This document shows positions 19,110 through 27,720 of a stretch of 45,911 bases of DNA, in pieces. Position 1 is the stretch's first letter; every line of letters starts with the position of its first letter. The stretch lies in assembly GCA_003576845.1 (NCBI GenBank), contig QEVJ01000080.1, positions 1 through 45,911 on the forward strand. The letters are read 5' to 3'. The notes beneath the pieces are model-generated. The model searched no databases. It saw only the letters and a program-made list of their open reading frames with translations, and was not told the origin of the DNA. The translations under genes and the position numbers were made by a program. The stretch is from Planctomycetota bacterium (lineage in GTDB: Bacteria; Planctomycetota; Planctomycetia; Pirellulales; PLA5).

Positions 19110-22100
19110 ATGTCCCGTCGTTCTCTTTCGCGCTACGGCACGCTTGCCGTAATTGCTCTGGCTGTCGGCGCCGCGACGCATTTTGCTTTGGCCCAGAACG
19201 CGGCGACTCCCGACAAGAAGCCGGAAGAATCCTCAGCGTTGACGCCCGAACCGGAAGCCCCAGCGGCGGTGCGGCAGGCGATGCAGGACCGCGACTATGC
19301 GGCGGCCATCAAGGCCATCGACGCCGCGATGTCCGCCGAGGGCGCGGCCAAGGACTATCTCGCCTATCTCAAGGGCCGCGCGCTGCATTTGAGCGAGAAG
19401 TACGACGAAGCGATCGCCCGCTTCGACACGATCGAGAAGGAGTTCCCTAAGAGTCCTTGGATTCGCCGGGCGCGATTCGGGATGGCGGTGTCGCTCGCTC
19501 GCAAGGGCGACTTCCGCGCGGCCGAATTGATCTATCGCCGCGAGGCGGAGTATTTGCTGTCGGCCGATCGCAAACAGGAGATTGCGAACTTGTACCTGGA
19601 GTTCGCGCAGACGTACTTCAAGCCGCCGAAGGAAGACCAGAAGCCGGACTATCAGAAGGCACTCGGCTTTTTCCAGAACGCCCTCGCCGTCGGACCAAAG
19701 CCGGAGAAGAAACGCGAAGTCGAGATGCTCGTGGCCGAGTGCTTCTTCAATCTCGGCAACTTTGCCGAAGCGGCCCGGCTCTATGCCCAGTTCGTAAAGG
19801 ACTATCCCGACGCGGCCGAATTGATCGAGGCGAAGTTCCGCTTGGGCGATAGCCAGTTGAAGCAGGGCCAACTTGCCGATGCCCGCCGCACGTGGCAGGA
19901 CCTGCTCGCGGCGCATGCGGACAACAAGAGTCCGCGGATCGCCGAAGCGACGTTCAATCTGTCGCTGACGTACCAGATGCCGAATCCGCAGAGCGATGAG
20001 GACTTGGGGCTCGGCGTGGCGGCGCTCGATGCGTTCGTGAAGAAGTTTCCGGAGCACAAGCTGGCGAGCACGGCCCATTTGCGGATCGCCCAGGCGTACG
20101 TGAATCGCGGTCGGCACGAGGACGCGGCCAAGCGACTCGCGGCGTATCTAGCCGATGCCCGCTATGCCGATCGCGAAGAAACGCCGGACGCGCGCTCGCT
20201 GCTGGGGCAGGCGAATCTGCTGCAAAAGAAGTTCACGGAAGCCATCGCGGCCTGGCGCGACTATCTCGCCAAGCATCCGACGCACAGCGCGTGGAGCGGC
20301 GTGCAACAGGCGATCGTCGACGCACAGTTCGCGATGGCCGCCGACCGCCGCGAGGCGAAGGCTTACGACGAAGCTCGCAAACTGTGGACGGAGTTTTTGG
20401 CGAATTATCCGCTCGATCCGCGCGGGCCGACGATCTGGTACACGTTCGGCGCGATGAACTTCGACCAAAAGAAATGGGACGAAGCGATCGCCGATTGGAC
20501 ACGGCTCGTGTCGAAGTATCCGAACACCGGCGAAGCGTCGCGCGCGCAGTTGATGATCGGCCACGTGCTCGAAACCAAGCAGGGCAAGCTCGCCGCGGCG
20601 CTTGAACAGTATCGCAAAGTCGCCGGTCTGTCGCAGCCCGACGCGGCTCAGCGGATCGTGCAACTTACGGCCAAGACGATGGCCGTGGCGACCGAGCGGG
20701 TGTTCCGGTCGAACGAAACGCCGAAGCTCAAGTTCACGAGCCGCAACATCGACTCGGTGACCGTTCGCATCTATGCCATCGACCTGGAAACGTATTTCCG
20801 CAAGATGCACCTGGCCAGCGGCGTCGAGGGCCTCGATATCTCGCTGATCGATCCCGACCGCAGCTTCGAATTCAAGGTGCCGAAATACGCCGAGTATCAA
20901 GAACTCGAAAGCCAGATCGAGGTGCCGCTGCCGCAGAAGTCTGCACTGGCTGAGCCAGTGGCACCCGGCACTGGGCCAGTGCCACCCGGGAAGAGCGGCG
21001 CGATGGCGATTACCGTGTCGAGCAAGACGCTGACGGCCACGACGCTCGTCCTGCAATCGGACCTCGACATCATCGTCAAAAGCTCGCGGAACGAGGTGTT
21101 CGTGCTTGCCGAGAACATGGTCACTGGCCAGCCGTGGAAGGACGTGAAGCTGCTGATTTCGAACGGCCAGACGGTGTTTGCCGAAGCGAAAACCGGCGAC
21201 GACGGCGTGTTCAAGGGCGATTACAAAGCGTTGATTCCGGCCGGTGGCACCGGCTCAGCCAGTGGCTTGGCCAGCGATGACGTCCGCGTATTCGCGGTGG
21301 CCGGTTCGCATACCGGATCGAACGTCGTCGGTCTTCAGGGGGTCGGCGTCGCGACCGGGCTGGCCGACAAAGGTTACATCTACACGGACCGCCCGGCGTA
21401 TCGCCCTGGCGACATGGTTCATGTCCGCGGCGTGATTCGCGGCGTGTCCGGCGATGCCTTTACCATAGCCGAAGGGGCGAAGTACACGATCCAGGTGTTC
21501 GATCCGCGGAACCGGATGCTGCATCAAGAGGAAGCGGCGCTGTCGGAGTTCGGCGGCTTGGGAACGCACTTCTTGCTGCCCACCGCGGCCGTGCAGGGCG
21601 AGTACCGCGTGCTCGTGACCGAGGCGGCCAAGGAGATCGCCTCGCCGAAGAGCTATCAAGGAACGTTCGGCGTCCACGAGTATCGCCTCGAACCGGTGCG
21701 AATCGCCGTCGATTCGGACCGCGCGGTTTACTACCGCGGCGAAGAGATCAAGGGGAAGATTCGCGTGCAGTTCTACTACGGCGCGCCGGTCGTCGGAGCC
21801 GACGTGCGCTATCAACTGTCCGACGGCGCGGTCGCGACGGCCAAGACGAACGACAAGGGCGAGATCGACTTCACGTTCCCCACGCGCGAATTTCGCGAGA
21901 CGCAGACGTTGCCGCTCGTCGTGACGCTGCCCGAACGGAACATCGGCGCGGTCAAGCCGTTCGTGCTGGCGACCAAGGGCTTTTCGATCAATATCTCGAC
22001 CGTGCGGCCGTTATACTTGGCGGGCGAGTCGTTCGAGGCGTCGATCAAGACCGTCGACGCGGAAGGCAAACCGATCGCCCAGAAGCTCAATCTCAAGGTG

Positions 22101-25100
22101 CTCGAACGCACCACGGTCGAGGGCCGCGTCGGCGAACGGCTCGTGTCGGAGCACGCGATCGAAACCGACAAGGAAGGCAACGCGCGGCAAACGCTCAAGC
22201 TCGACGCCGGCGGGCAGTACATCTTGCGAGCCGAAGGGACGGATCGGTTCGAGAACCCGATATACGGCGCGGCGCAAGTGCAACTTTCGGACGACAAGGA
22301 CACGGTGCGACTGCGGCTCTTGGCCGATAAGCACACCTTCAAGGTCGGCGACGTGGCGAAGGTGAATTTGCACTGGCGCGAAGCGCCGGCGCTCGCGCTC
22401 GTGACGTTTCAGGGCGCTCGGGTGCTCGATTACAAGCTGGTCACGCTCAAAACGGGCGACAACCCGCTCGAACTACCGATGACGGCGCCGCTTGCGCCGA
22501 ACTTCGAGTTGGCCGTGGCGGTGATGACCGACACGCGGCCGCAATTGGACGCCGAGGGAAAAACGAAGGACGCCGACAAGCCGATCACGCGGCTGCATCT
22601 CGCGTCCAGCCCGATTACGGTCAATCGTGAGCTCAAAGTTACGGTTGAAGTCAAGCGGAAGAACGGCGCGGCCGCCGGCACTGGCGTAGCCAGTGGCACC
22701 CCCGCCAAACCGGGCGAGGAGGTCGACGTCGTTGTCGCAACGACAGACGCCCAGGGCAAGCCCATCGCGGCGGAAGTGAGCTTAGCCATGATCGAGCAAT
22801 CGCTGCTCGAACAGTTCTCGTTCGCGGTGCCGGCGATTCAGGACTTTTTCGGCGGCGGGCGGCGCGAAACGGCGGTCCGCACCACGGCGAGCATTACGTT
22901 CGCCTATCGTCCGGCGACCCAGGCGATCAATCCGCGGCTCCTGGCAGACGAAGATCGAAAGATGCTCGAACTGGACGAGTCACGGCGGCTTAGCGAACTC
23001 AGTAAGCAGATGGCGGCGAGCGGCTTTACGCCGCAGTCGACGCGTCCTGGCCCGACGGGCGGCGGAGAATGGGCCGGACGGCGTTCCGGCGCCGGCGGCG
23101 AGCGGGGCGAAGGAGTGGCCGACGAAGCGCCGGCACCAGTCGATTGGTCCACGATCGCGGCCGACCCGAATGCGCCGATGGACGCCCCCGCGGAGGAGTT
23201 CGCCACGGCGGGAGCGCTCGATCTGCATGCGCGCAACGGCCAGGCCGCCGCGGAGGATCGGCTTGGGACGCGATCCAAGAGCGAGGCGGCAAAACGCAAG
23301 CTGCAGCAATACTCTGCCGGCGGTATGGCGGGCAAGGCGAACTCAAGGGGCATTTCAATGGGATTGCAAGGCGCACCGGCCGAATCCGATCTCGATGGCG
23401 ACGGTAAGCCAGACGTTTCCGCGGCGTTGGGCGCCCAAACGCTGGCTTTCGACTATGCCCAAACGTTCGCTGGCGACGCGGTTACCTATGGCATTCCGAT
23501 GGGCAGCACGGACGGGACGGTCGCCTTCGGTCGAATGCTGGGCGCGGGCCGCCGCGACGTCGTGGCCGTCGATCGCTGGGGTAAGATGGGGAACGTGTAC
23601 TTCGCCGACCTCTCCGACGCCGAGCAGAAGGCCGAAGGCAAACGCCTCGCCGACGCCGGCGCGCTTCTGCTGCCGCAACTGGTCATTCAAGAAACTGGGT
23701 ATTGGAATCCGTCGGTCGTCACCGACAACGCCGGCAAGGCGACAGTGGCGGTGACGCTGCCCGATCGGTCGACGGCATGGAAGCTGCTCGCCAAGGGTGC
23801 GACGAAAGAGACGCTGTGCGGCGAGGCCGACGCTTCGCTCGCTGTGAAGAAGGACCTGTTCGGTGAGCTCAAGTTGCCGCTGGCGTTCACCGACGGCGAC
23901 GACGCCGAGATCGCAGCGTCGATCCACAACCATGCCATCGACAAGGGGACGATCAAGGTCACGCTCAAGACGACGGTCGGCGGCAAGAGCGACGTGGCGA
24001 CGAAGACGGTCGACGTGTCGAAGCAGGGGATCGAGCAATTGACGTTTGGGCAAAAGATTCGACGTTCGGCTGCGGAAGGTGAGCCCAGTGCCGACGAAAT
24101 GCTCATTGAGTTGACCGTCGAAGCCGACGGCAAGAGCGACGTCGTTCGCCGCCGGCTGCCGATTCAGCCCTACGGTCTGCCGGTTTACAACATTTCCGGC
24201 GGTTCTGCGGCCGCGGACACGACGGCGTGGGTGGAAGCCCCGGCAAACGTGGCCGACGACGCCCGAAGTTTGCAGATTCTTCTCGGCCCGACGGTCGAGC
24301 GGAGCCTGCTCGACGTGCTGTTCGGTCCGGCGACGGTGTGTCAGATCGACAACGTGCGGCTCGCCGCGAGCCTCGACACGGCGACGAGCGACGCGCTCTC
24401 GGCGATCGCGCTGGGGAAGCTTCTAAGCGCCGACGACAAGGCGAGCACGACCGTGCAAGCGCTCGACGCGCGGCTGCGATCGACGGTCTCGCTGCTCGTC
24501 GCGGCGCAAAATGACGACGGCGGGTGGAGTTGGACCGGTCAAAAAGGTACGGCCAGCCATCGCTATACGTCGGCCCGCGTGGTATGGGCGTTGGCCCTCG
24601 CCCGCAAGTCCGGCTATCGCGTGCCCGACGACGGTTTCGACAAGGGCTGCAATTATCTGGCCAGCGAAATCGCCAAGACGCGCGACGACGATTACGAGAG
24701 CAAGGCGATTCTGCTGCACGCCCTCGCGGTTGCCGGGCGAGACGACTTTGCGCTCGCGAATCGTCTGCATCGCAATCGGCCGGCGCTCTCGACGAGCGCG
24801 CTGTTGCACGTGGCGCTGGCGCTGGCCGAAATGGAGCGCAAGCCGATGGCGGAGGACCTGCTCAAGGTCGTCGCCGAACAGAATCTCGACGCGCCGCAAG
24901 CCAAGCGAACGATTGGCGCGTCGCTGCCGTGGACGCACGCGTCGGCCGAAACGCGGGCGCTGTATGCGCTGGCTTTGATTCGCACGTCGCCCGAATCGAC
25001 GAAGCTCAAGGAGCAAGTCGACTGGCTGCTCGCCCATCGCGCCGGCCATCGTTGGTCGCCGGACAAGGCGACCGGCCCGGCGATGCTCGCATTGTGCGAA

Positions 25101-27593
25101 TGGAACGCCAAGAACCGCGTGAAGGCGGCGCAGTACGAGCTCGACATTTTCGTCAACGACGTGAAGGCCAAAACGGTCGTCGTCGACGATACGACCGCGA
25201 CGCAGACGATCGACGTCGCCGCGAACCTTTTGAAGAAGGGCAAGCAGCGGATCAACTTCGTGATTCGCGGCCGCGGCGAATATACGTATCAGGCCGTGCT
25301 CGGCGGTTTCGTGCCGGCCGAGAAGCTCGCGTCGACGACGCAGGACTGGCACGTCCGCCGCTATTACGAACCCGCGCCGCTCGAATTCGAAGGCAAAGAA
25401 ATCCCCCGCGGCTTCGGCGTGATCGAAGGGCAGTACACGCCGTTCCGCAACGCGCTCACGCAACTGCCCGTCGGGCAGCGTGGTCACGTCGAACTGACCG
25501 TGTCGCGGATCAATGTGCCGGGCAACGTGCCGGAAGAGCAACTCGAATACCTCGTCGTGACCGAGCCGCTGCCGAGCGGGGCGAGCGTGGTCGAGAACTC
25601 GGTCCGCGGCGGGTTCGAGCGGTATGAAATCTCGCCCGGCGCGATCACGTTCTACGTCGGCAGTCGCCGGTACGTCGAGCCGATCCACTACGACATCTAC
25701 GGCTACGTGTCCGGCAACTATCAGGCCGCGCCGACCGTCGTTCGCAACGCCTATCGGCCCGACCAGCTCGCCGCGGCGGGCGTCAATAAGCTCGCGGTGC
25801 TCGCGGCTGGCAAGCCGAGCGGCGACGCCTATCGCCTTTCGCCGCAGGAGTTGTACGAACTGGGCAAGCGCTCGTTCGACAAGCAGGATTTCGACGCGGC
25901 CGGCAAGCACTTGGGCGAGCTCATCGCGAACTGGAATCTGCGGCCCGAGTTCTACAAGGAGACGGCCCGCATGTTGCTCGACGTGCATCTGGCCCGCGGT
26001 CCGGCGAGCGGTGTGGTCAAGTATTTCGAGATCGTCAAGGAGAAGTGGCCGGACCTCGAAATGCCGTTCGACAAGATCGTCAAGGTCGGCGCCGCGTACC
26101 ACGACATGGGCGAGTACGAACGGGCGTATCTCATCTTCCGGGCGACCGTCGAAAGCAGCTTTTCGCGCGAAAGCGGTGTGGCCGGGTTCTTGGACGGCCA
26201 GGGCGAGTTCGTCCGCAGCGTCGACGTGATGCGGCGGCTGCTGCTCGAATACCCGGCCGAGTCTTACGCGGCGGTGGCGACATACGCGCTCGCGCAGCAG
26301 GTTTACGGCAAAGCGGCGAACGTCCTCGCCGATGAAAAGCTGAAGGAGAAGAAGATCAATCGCGTCGACTTGATTCGTCAGGCCCACGCGATGCTCGAAG
26401 GCTTCTTGACGATGTATCCCGAGGACCCGGCGGCCGATCAGGCGTCGTTCTCGGCGGCCAATGCGCTGCTCGATCTCAAAGCCTACAAACCGGCCATCGC
26501 CGCCTGCGAGGCGTATGCCCTGCGGTATCCCAAGAGCGATTATCTGGACAGCTACTGGTATTTGATCGGCTATTGCCACTTCGCCCAACACGAGCACGAG
26601 GCGGCCTTGGCCATGTGCAAGAAAGTCGCCGAGGCGAAGCGGGTCGATAGGAGCACGGGCCGCGAGATGGAGAGCGTGAACAAAGACCGCGCGATCTACA
26701 TTATGGGGCAGGTGTATCACAGCTTGGGCAAGGCGGCCGAGGCGATCGTCGAGTACACGCGGGTGAAGGAACGCTTCGCCGACGCGGCGCAGGCGATCGA
26801 GTATTTCGCCCGCAAGGAGATCAAGCTGCCGGAGATCACGACGATCCGGCCCGGCAAACCGGCGGAAGTGAAGCTCGCGTTCCGCAACGTGGCAAACTGC
26901 GAAGTGATGGTGTATCGCATCGACCTGATGAAGTTCAGCCTGCTGCGGCGGAACTTGGGCGAGATCACGGCGATCAACCTCGCCGGCATTCGTCCGTATC
27001 ACGAATCGACGGAAAAACTCGGCGACGGCAAGGATTATCGCGACCGCGAGCACGTGCTGACGCTGCCGCTCAAGGACGAAGGCGCGTATCTCGTGGTGTG
27101 CCGGGGCGAGAACTTGCACACGAGCGGGCTGGCGGTCGTTTCGCCGCTGGAGGTCGAGATTCAGGAAGATGCCGCGTCGGGACGCGTGCGGACGACGGTC
27201 AAGGACGTCGCCAAGGACGCATACGTCGGCGACGCGCACGTGAAGGTGATCGGCTCGCGGAACGACGACTTCCACAGCGGCGCGACCGATCTTCGCGGCG
27301 TGTTCATCGCCGACGGCATCGTCGGCACGTCGACGGTCATTGCCCAGGTCGACGAACGGCGGTATGCGTTCTACCGCGGCAAAGTCGAACTCGGCCCGCC
27401 GCCGGCTCCGGCGACGCCGCCGCCGGCCGCGAAAGAACCGGCTCAACAACCGGCTTCGGCGAAGGATGCGGAAGGGGAACTGCTCGAAGGACTGCGCAGC
27501 GGCAATCAGATGATCATCCAGGAGCAGCAGCAGAACCTCAAGCAGCTCTACGAGAACAAGCCCAGCGGCGTCGAGGTGCAGAAGGCGTACTGA
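19110..27593 (+). CDS. Giant MG2/alpha-2-macroglobulin-like protein with terminal TPR modules
   Basis: A 2,827-residue envelope protein. Signal peptide 1-29; TPR-like repeats to about residue 520; a beta domain (about 530-610, with VTVRIYAIDLETYFRK); macroglobulin-type beta domains including the MG2 segment YIYTDRPAYRPGDMVHVRGV near 757; a low-complexity region (about 1300-1420) and a calcium-site-like DLDGDGKPD near 1427; an alpha-2-macroglobulin core with LPDRSTAWKLLAKG and a helical toroid (QNDDGGWSW, about 1797). The usual thioester CxEQ is missing; the matching region reads LFGPATVCQIDNVRL. After about 2245 there are more TPR repeats and a second copy of the 530-610 domain type (CEVMVYRIDLMKFSLLRR). 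Bacterial relatives are thought to trap proteases or guard the envelope. GAGGAG precedes the ATG. Palindromic repeats lie in the coding sequence at three sites. Confidence 0.9.
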   Translation: MSRRSLSRYGTLAVIALAVGAATHFALAQNAATPDKKPEESSALTPEPEAPAAVRQAMQDRDYAAAIKAIDAAMSAEGAAKDYLAYLKGRALHLSEKYDEAIARFDTIEKEFPKSPWIRRARFGMAVSLARKGDFRAAELIYRREAEYLLSADRKQEIANLYLEFAQTYFKPPKEDQKPDYQKALGFFQNALAVGPKPEKKREVEMLVAECFFNLGNFAEAARLYAQFVKDYPDAAELIEAKFRLGDSQLKQGQLADARRTWQDLLAAHADNKSPRIAEATFNLSLTYQMPNPQSDEDLGLGVAALDAFVKKFPEHKLASTAHLRIAQAYVNRGRHEDAAKRLAAYLADARYADREETPDARSLLGQANLLQKKFTEAIAAWRDYLAKHPTHSAWSGVQQAIVDAQFAMAADRREAKAYDEARKLWTEFLANYPLDPRGPTIWYTFGAMNFDQKKWDEAIADWTRLVSKYPNTGEASRAQLMIGHVLETKQGKLAAALEQYRKVAGLSQPDAAQRIVQLTAKTMAVATERVFRSNETPKLKFTSRNIDSVTVRIYAIDLETYFRKMHLASGVEGLDISLIDPDRSFEFKVPKYAEYQELESQIEVPLPQKSALAEPVAPGTGPVPPGKSGAMAITVSSKTLTATTLVLQSDLDIIVKSSRNEVFVLAENMVTGQPWKDVKLLISNGQTVFAEAKTGDDGVFKGDYKALIPAGGTGSASGLASDDVRVFAVAGSHTGSNVVGLQGVGVATGLADKGYIYTDRPAYRPGDMVHVRGVIRGVSGDAFTIAEGAKYTIQVFDPRNRMLHQEEAALSEFGGLGTHFLLPTAAVQGEYRVLVTEAAKEIASPKSYQGTFGVHEYRLEPVRIAVDSDRAVYYRGEEIKGKIRVQFYYGAPVVGADVRYQLSDGAVATAKTNDKGEIDFTFPTREFRETQTLPLVVTLPERNIGAVKPFVLATKGFSINISTVRPLYLAGESFEASIKTVDAEGKPIAQKLNLKVLERTTVEGRVGERLVSEHAIETDKEGNARQTLKLDAGGQYILRAEGTDRFENPIYGAAQVQLSDDKDTVRLRLLADKHTFKVGDVAKVNLHWREAPALALVTFQGARVLDYKLVTLKTGDNPLELPMTAPLAPNFELAVAVMTDTRPQLDAEGKTKDADKPITRLHLASSPITVNRELKVTVEVKRKNGAAAGTGVASGTPAKPGEEVDVVVATTDAQGKPIAAEVSLAMIEQSLLEQFSFAVPAIQDFFGGGRRETAVRTTASITFAYRPATQAINPRLLADEDRKMLELDESRRLSELSKQMAASGFTPQSTRPGPTGGGEWAGRRSGAGGERGEGVADEAPAPVDWSTIAADPNAPMDAPAEEFATAGALDLHARNGQAAAEDRLGTRSKSEAAKRKLQQYSAGGMAGKANSRGISMGLQGAPAESDLDGDGKPDVSAALGAQTLAFDYAQTFAGDAVTYGIPMGSTDGTVAFGRMLGAGRRDVVAVDRWGKMGNVYFADLSDAEQKAEGKRLADAGALLLPQLVIQETGYWNPSVVTDNAGKATVAVTLPDRSTAWKLLAKGATKETLCGEADASLAVKKDLFGELKLPLAFTDGDDAEIAASIHNHAIDKGTIKVTLKTTVGGKSDVATKTVDVSKQGIEQLTFGQKIRRSAAEGEPSADEMLIELTVEADGKSDVVRRRLPIQPYGLPVYNISGGSAAADTTAWVEAPANVADDARSLQILLGPTVERSLLDVLFGPATVCQIDNVRLAASLDTATSDALSAIALGKLLSADDKASTTVQALDARLRSTVSLLVAAQNDDGGWSWTGQKGTASHRYTSARVVWALALARKSGYRVPDDGFDKGCNYLASEIAKTRDDDYESKAILLHALAVAGRDDFALANRLHRNRPALSTSALLHVALALAEMERKPMAEDLLKVVAEQNLDAPQAKRTIGASLPWTHASAETRALYALALIRTSPESTKLKEQVDWLLAHRAGHRWSPDKATGPAMLALCEWNAKNRVKAAQYELDIFVNDVKAKTVVVDDTTATQTIDVAANLLKKGKQRINFVIRGRGEYTYQAVLGGFVPAEKLASTTQDWHVRRYYEPAPLEFEGKEIPRGFGVIEGQYTPFRNALTQLPVGQRGHVELTVSRINVPGNVPEEQLEYLVVTEPLPSGASVVENSVRGGFERYEISPGAITFYVGSRRYVEPIHYDIYGYVSGNYQAAPTVVRNAYRPDQLAAAGVNKLAVLAAGKPSGDAYRLSPQELYELGKRSFDKQDFDAAGKHLGELIANWNLRPEFYKETARMLLDVHLARGPASGVVKYFEIVKEKWPDLEMPFDKIVKVGAAYHDMGEYERAYLIFRATVESSFSRESGVAGFLDGQGEFVRSVDVMRRLLLEYPAESYAAVATYALAQQVYGKAANVLADEKLKEKKINRVDLIRQAHAMLEGFLTMYPEDPAADQASFSAANALLDLKAYKPAIAACEAYALRYPKSDYLDSYWYLIGYCHFAQHEHEAALAMCKKVAEAKRVDRSTGREMESVNKDRAIYIMGQVYHSLGKAAEAIVEYTRVKERFADAAQAIEYFARKEIKLPEITTIRPGKPAEVKLAFRNVANCEVMVYRIDLMKFSLLRRNLGEITAINLAGIRPYHESTEKLGDGKDYRDREHVLTLPLKDEGAYLVVCRGENLHTSGLAVVSPLEVEIQEDAASGRVRTTVKDVAKDAYVGDAHVKVIGSRNDDFHSGATDLRGVFIADGIVGTSTVIAQVDERRYAFYRGKVELGPPPAPATPPPAAKEPAQQPASAKDAEGELLEGLRSGNQMIIQEQQQNLKQLYENKPSGVEVQKAY
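20944..20983. repeat. In-frame double palindrome inside the MG2 gene (site A)
   Basis: CACTGGC-TGA-GCCAGTG (20944-20960), GCACCC, then GGCACTGG-G-CCAGTGCC (20967-20983). It encodes a Pro/Gly-rich loop (ALAEPVAPGTGPVPPG) at about residues 612-627, between two beta domains. It is the most complete of three copies inside the gene. Confidence 0.8.
21246..21266. repeat. In-frame palindrome inside the MG2 gene (site B)
   Basis: GGCACCGGCTCAGCCAGTGGC, i.e. CACCGGC-TCA-GCCAGTG, one mismatch from the site A core. Read in the gene frame it gives GTGSASG in a Gly/Ser-rich linker near residue 715. Confidence 0.65.
22677..22701. repeat. In-frame palindrome inside the MG2 gene (site C)
   Basis: GG then CACTGGC-GTA-GCCAGTG then GCACCC: perfect 7-base arms with a three-base loop and the same GCACCC flank as site A. 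It encodes GTGVASGTP near residue 1192, in a linker. Its reading frame differs from the first palindrome of site A. Confidence 0.75.
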
Positions 27594-27621: not shown

Positions 27622-27720
27622 CGCGGGTGCCACTGCTGGCTCGTCCAGCAGTGATGAGAGTTGCCGTTTGACGTCGCCTCGCGAATCGCACTGCTGGACG
27701 AGCCAGCAGTGGCACCCGCG
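27622..27720. terminator. 32-base perfect inverted repeat between convergent genes
   Basis: Arms 27622-27653 and 27689-27720 are exact reverse complements (32 of 32) around a 35-base spacer. Each arm is itself a hairpin, CACTGCTGG-CTCGT-CCAGCAGTG, flanked by the GGCACCCG box also seen next to the palindromes inside the MG2 gene. It fills most of the gap between the MG2 gene and the convergent cyanophycinase gene, so it probably ends both transcripts. There is no T run. Confidence 0.75.

Follow-up and report, generated by a model that had tools for sequence, protein, structure and literature searches.

A single open reading frame of the planctomycete contig stretch analysed here (the window, 45,911 nucleotides), at 19110-27593 on the plus strand, encodes a TPR and alpha-2-macroglobulin-like protein of 2827 amino acids, of which GTGVASGTPAKPGEE is a part. 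Its Pfam domains comprise MG2 (residues 754-853), A2M_BRD (bait-region, 1068-1233), and A2M (1531-1619). A short palindrome recurs within this gene without breaking the frame, which raises the question of whether a mobile repeat has entered the coding sequence or whether the protein itself has favoured these segments.

Palindromic copies in and after the host gene

The core CACTGGC-NNN-GCCAGTG is found exactly at 20944-20960 and 22679-22695 and with one mismatch at 21248-21264. When up to two mismatches are allowed, the window contains four matches against 0.09 expected, a number equalled in none of 100 shuffles. The first-pass annotation had reported three in-frame occurrences in the MG2 gene, and this is confirmed; its first and third positions are exact, whereas the second had been placed at 21246, two bases off.

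Copy 1 (20944-20966, minus strand; reverse complement GGGTGC CACTGGC TCA GCCAGTG) is read as ALAEPVAP in phase 1. It stands in tandem with a degenerate second unit (20969-20987, minus strand; reverse complement GGGTGG CACTGGCCCAGTG) whose loop is shortened, and the palindrome beside copy 1, GGCACTGGGCCAGTGCC at 20967-20983, is the one that had been noted at 20967. Copy 2 (21241-21264, plus strand; CCGGTGG CACCGGC TCA GCCAGTG) is older and diverged, and is read as GTGSASG. Copy 3 (22679-22702, minus strand; reverse complement GGGGTGC CACTGGC TAC GCCAGTG) is read as GTGVASGTP, has no mismatch to the 24-mer consensus described below, and falls inside the A2M_BRD-matched region. GCACCC directly follows the cores of copies 1 and 3, as had also been observed. 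All copies preserve the frame of 19110-27593. Copy 1 gives ALAEPVA, whereas copies 2 and 3 give GTGSASG and GTGVASG, respectively, so that one DNA element is translated in two phases, in agreement with the earlier statement that more than one frame is used. An AlphaFold model was built on 26 orthologues for 699 residues of the protein (codons from window position 20700 on). Four of its segments have a pLDDT below 50, and the insert residues fall in three of these (80-96, 181-191, and 661-665), each of which lies between strands; the low values are partly due to the absence of homologues at the inserts.

Beginning 32 bp beyond the stop codon of the host gene, an inverted pair is present whose first half (27625-27653, plus strand) has the sequence GGGTGC CACTGCTGG CTCGT CCAGCAGTG and whose second half lies at 27689-27717 on the minus strand; the pair folds as one hairpin (z -11.8). 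Its palindrome, GGGTGC-CACTGCTGG-NNNNN-CCAGCAGTG, is related to the in-gene element and longer. The element after the gene had been assigned to the same repeat family; a related repeat is indeed there, but it belongs to a sister family of longer form, which is often found in inverted pairs with a spacing of about 55 bp.

The repeat family in the genome

In the source assembly (7.05 Mb, 289 contigs), 43 exact cores were detected and none of the reversed control, while the 24-mer consensus with up to three mismatches gave 73 matches against one for the reversed control. The consensus of the 43 aligned and oriented copies, GGGGTG[GC]-CACTGGC-TNN-GCCAGTG, is asymmetric and 24 bp long. It combines a 7-bp stem and a 3-nt loop with a one-sided head, GGGTG, each position of which is kept in 40-42 of the 43 oriented copies. 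This shape lies within the limits of repetitive extragenic palindromes (REPs; 20-40 bp, stem of 5-13 bp), and the many copies occur, like REPs, both singly and as inverted dimers, the latter with heads outward, about 100-150 bp long, and forming strong hairpins. The head tetranucleotide, always on the same side, is GTGG in 20 of the 43 copies and GTGC in 22, so that only half of the heads fit GTRG. Two sister families have the same head, namely CACTGCTGG-N5-CCAGCAGTG (92 genome copies) and CACTGGTGG-N6-CCACCAGTG (14 copies). No description of the repeat in Pirellulales was found in the open-licence literature.

For the in-gene census, loci were fetched around each copy and genes were predicted by a codon-usage gene caller rather than by a standard annotator. 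The count of intergenic against in-gene copies that the first-pass annotation had proposed gave 22 and 21 of the 43, respectively, in sampled DNA that is 84% coding; the tendency of REPs to be mainly extragenic, which is not a strict criterion, thus does not hold in this genome. The 21 in-gene copies are spread over about 13 genes; 13 of them are robust, being flanked on either side by good coding signal, while the other eight calls are weak, and copies within one gene are not independent.

The 24-bp unit corresponds to exactly eight codons in which stop codons are rare, and two of its three phases encode bland linkers (GTGSASG, ALAxPVAP). The phases are used 14/7/0 times by the 21 in-gene copies and 9/4/0 times by the 13 robust ones; the probability of finding none in the HWxxQ phase is 0.005. 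Because the HWxxQ[CW] phase is free of stops and yet never used in this genome, the pattern points to selection on the encoded peptide. A stronger version, in which the family is itself coding-adapted, its eight-codon length and two linker-like phases having been selected since genes are often hit, is unlikely; if true, it would make the system a natural source of in-frame linkers for this lineage.

Empty and occupied sites in MG2 orthologues

The closest MG2 orthologue (L055) is carried by G058, which has the same matches and coordinates as G001 and was therefore treated as one genome with it; G001 is the only same-genus genome sampled. At the copy 3 site, this orthologue shows an exact 24-bp gap whose edges coincide with the ends of the consensus. 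The copy 1 site corresponds to a net gap of 39 bp, the second degenerate unit included. Copy 2 is present in decayed form, and three of its four changed codons are synonymous. None of the three insert peptides was found in about 30 further MG2 orthologues. The alignment suggested earlier thus gave absence of copies 1 and 3 in the same-genus relative and of all three elsewhere, and the pattern named as contrary to insertion, that of distant orthologues carrying the same peptides with unrelated codons, was not encountered, only copy 2 being common to the same-genus relative. Protein-level conservation of the linkers was accordingly rejected for copies 1 and 3. The MG2-type gene took at least three hits, of which copy 2 is older than the split from the sampled same-genus relative, and copies 1 and 3 probably arrived after it.

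Some orthologues have different, unrelated inserts in these MG2 linkers. Two of them (L060, 4125-6227; L087, 5001-7091) contain inserts resembling other palindromic repeats, such as CCCTCACCCCAGCCCTCTCACGGGAGAGG and TTTCGCTCCGCGAAAGTCGCGATCGCGG. Judged by these sequences, the linker loops look as if they were general landing sites.

Copies in other genes

In the source genome, further copies lie, among other places, in the genes for RNase R, transketolase, and PurQ; a hydantoinase gene holds four, and genes for a CotH protein and a FabA/acyltransferase protein are also hosts. Compared with six or seven relatives each, insertions of about 21 amino acids in RNase R, six amino acids in transketolase, and about 15 and about 23 amino acids at two clear sites of the hydantoinase have empty counterparts, with a short unrelated insert in one relative at one of these sites; the other hydantoinase site lies in a variable linker. 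The insertion pattern also agrees with PDB homologues of transketolase, PurQ, and RNase R. The PurQ copy is common to the source genome and the same-genus relative, and in these two genus members the element is better kept than its immediate flanks. No transketolase orthologue was found in the same-genus relative's assembly.

The FabA/acyltransferase gene (L038, G000:C117) encodes a fatty-acid/polyketide-type synthase and contains a whole inverted REP pair, about 140 bp long (2439-2582), which separates the acyltransferase domain in frame from the FabA domain; the codon usage of the pair is non-coding-like. At L052 (G000:C247:28561-28577), the apparent signal peptide of an amidohydrolase (VLMVSV-ALAQPVHA-ADE) ends in a REP copy, which may supply the signal-peptidase site.

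Distribution in other genomes

The core is present in 15 of 58 genomes of the order, with up to 118 copies, and the same-genus genome has 16. In two other genera, copies in called genes number 1 of 27 (G035) and 9 of 29 (G016), and intergenic copies 25 of 27 and 20 of 29, respectively. The pooled in-gene share of these two genomes differs from that of the source genome with a Fisher P of about 0.002, calculated on copies that are not independent. An in-gene excess as a general trait of the family was rejected, both genomes being lower. In G016 and in a further genome of another genus, G002, copies (L184-L193) were also seen with a GTGTGC head on the same core, replacing GGGTG[GC], which suggests that head and stem evolve separately.

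Probable transposase linkage and proposed mechanism

Four Y1 transposase genes were identified in the source genome, one of which (G000:C70:1370-1972) passes the NF047646 model, 'REP-associated tyrosine transposase' (RAYT), with 87.2 bits at a cutoff of 80 and has the motifs PNHVHLL (HUH) and YIHQNPVR. Just upstream of it is an inverted pair, GGGGTGGCACTGGTGGSTTAACCCACCAGTG, which represents a longer-stem variant with 14 copies genome-wide. This variant has the same head and stem start (GGGGTGG-CACTGG) as the 24-bp form and is found with it in mixed clusters, e.g., at L041; the nearest 24-bp copy lies about 700 bp downstream of the RAYT. Such flanks were seen for one RAYT. None of the RAYT loci scanned in other genera had the core in its flanks, and only one, L110 in G009, had the sister long form. 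At that locus (528-1912), a Y1 gene stands amid four CACTGCTGG-N5-CCAGCAGTG copies, in a genome without the exact 24-bp core, which makes the locus a candidate long-family REPtron. In the same-genus genome (790 contigs, 92% complete), no Y1 gene was detected. On this sequence evidence, RAYT linkage of the 24-bp family appears probable but not tight.

With a probability of about 0.78, the repeat is a RAYT-linked REP family of this planctomycete lineage that is tolerant of coding sequence. In the proposed mechanism, the RAYT, a Y1/HUH tyrosine transposase of the same genome, probably mobilises the 24-bp hairpin as a single strand, with GGGGTGGCACTGGCTCGGCCAGTG, a sequence of the repeat, as the putative single-stranded substrate. 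That this enzyme moves the exact 24-bp form is inferred by analogy with known IS200/IS605 and RAYT biology. The element would insert widely in the genome, and copies in permissive gene loops would survive if the net length gained is divisible by three, each in-frame insertion adding about eight linker amino acids. The inserted peptides would be near neutral.

Comparison with known repeat systems

Opitutus terrae and Rickettsia conorii are among the bacteria for which intragenic REPs have been described, and the intragenic CGTC REPs of R. conorii were identified with RPE-4 and RPE-6 (PMC3733652). It was also reported that most GTAG-20 elements of Opitutus terrae have GTGG heads and that R. baltica has several REP families (PMC3733652). 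No description of a GTGC head for REPs was found in the literature compared. The kind of element is therefore already known as intragenic REPs, and what is unusual here is the high in-gene share, about half of the copies.

With GTAG/GTRG REPs and their RAYTs (REPtrons), the present family has in common a short stem-loop with a one-sided head and a stem within 5-13 bp, inverted dimers, multiple copies, a RAYT flanked by a repeat variant, and intragenic units; it differs in having GTGG or GTGC instead of the GTAG head and half of its copies in called genes. The CGTC REPs were reported without a transposase link, whereas a candidate RAYT is available here. MITE-like inverted REP dimers and BIMEs resemble the present pairs in their outward heads, length, strong hairpins, and the pair in frame in the FabA/acyltransferase gene (L038), but the target-site duplication and dedicated TIR transposase were not seen for this family. 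Rickettsia palindromic elements (RPEs) likewise lie in frame in unrelated protein genes at permissive sites, and in-frame insertion in genes with empty sites in relatives was found here as well. They belong to another phylum, however, and RPE-1 is described as longer than the 24 bp found here. Of the RPE comparison made in the first-pass annotation, the in-frame insertion behaviour stands, but RAYT-linked REP is the better classification of the element. Because half of the heads are GTGC, the RAYT linkage is not tight, and the in-gene share is high, it was filed as REP-like and not as a proven member of the GTAG class or of the RPEs.

Alternative explanations

A selfish, coding-adapted palindrome of the RPE kind might instead have spread by a route independent of the RAYT, which would then serve only its own flank variant. 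The 24-bp form was never seen at the immediate ends of a RAYT, the genus relative has copies with no Y1 match, and called genes hold about half of the copies. This reading is nonetheless improbable, given the head and stem start shared with the RAYT-flank variant, the mixed clusters of the two forms, and the fact that REP dimers together with RAYT linkage make up the standard REP picture (PMC3733652).

A protein-level origin, in which Gly/Ala/Ser/Pro linkers are selected and the palindrome results incidentally from codon choice and from slippage in low-complexity linkers, would account for the location of the copies in linkers, for the local expansion of CACTGGCTC-type units in two genes of the source genome (L001, L006), and for the kept peptide and mostly synonymous changes of copy 2. 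It is largely refuted by the occurrence of the same 24-mer in intergenic DNA in about half of the cases and in two phases; at the site of copy 3, moreover, the relative lacks exactly one element length, and conserved enzymes carry inserts where all relatives compared have nothing, which leaves this origin very unlikely. Least credible is spread through recombination or gene conversion among existing copies rather than transposition to new sites: the PurQ element is better kept than its flanks, but such exchange cannot alone make a copy at an empty site, and MG2 copy 3 and the hydantoinase and RNase R inserts all have empty counterparts.

Implications

The initial proposal, that a palindromic repeat is spreading and enters genes in frame, is supported by the genome count, the empty sites, and the two phases, as well as by the like insertions in RNase R, hydantoinase, and transketolase. 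On the RAYT-linked REP reading, this genome offers a clear example from outside Rickettsia of a REP family that coexists with a candidate transposase and has extended housekeeping enzymes by peptide segments. Empty and occupied sites can be ordered in time, and whether new protein segments arise from palindromic repeats, a long-standing question, becomes testable where the type of transposase is known.
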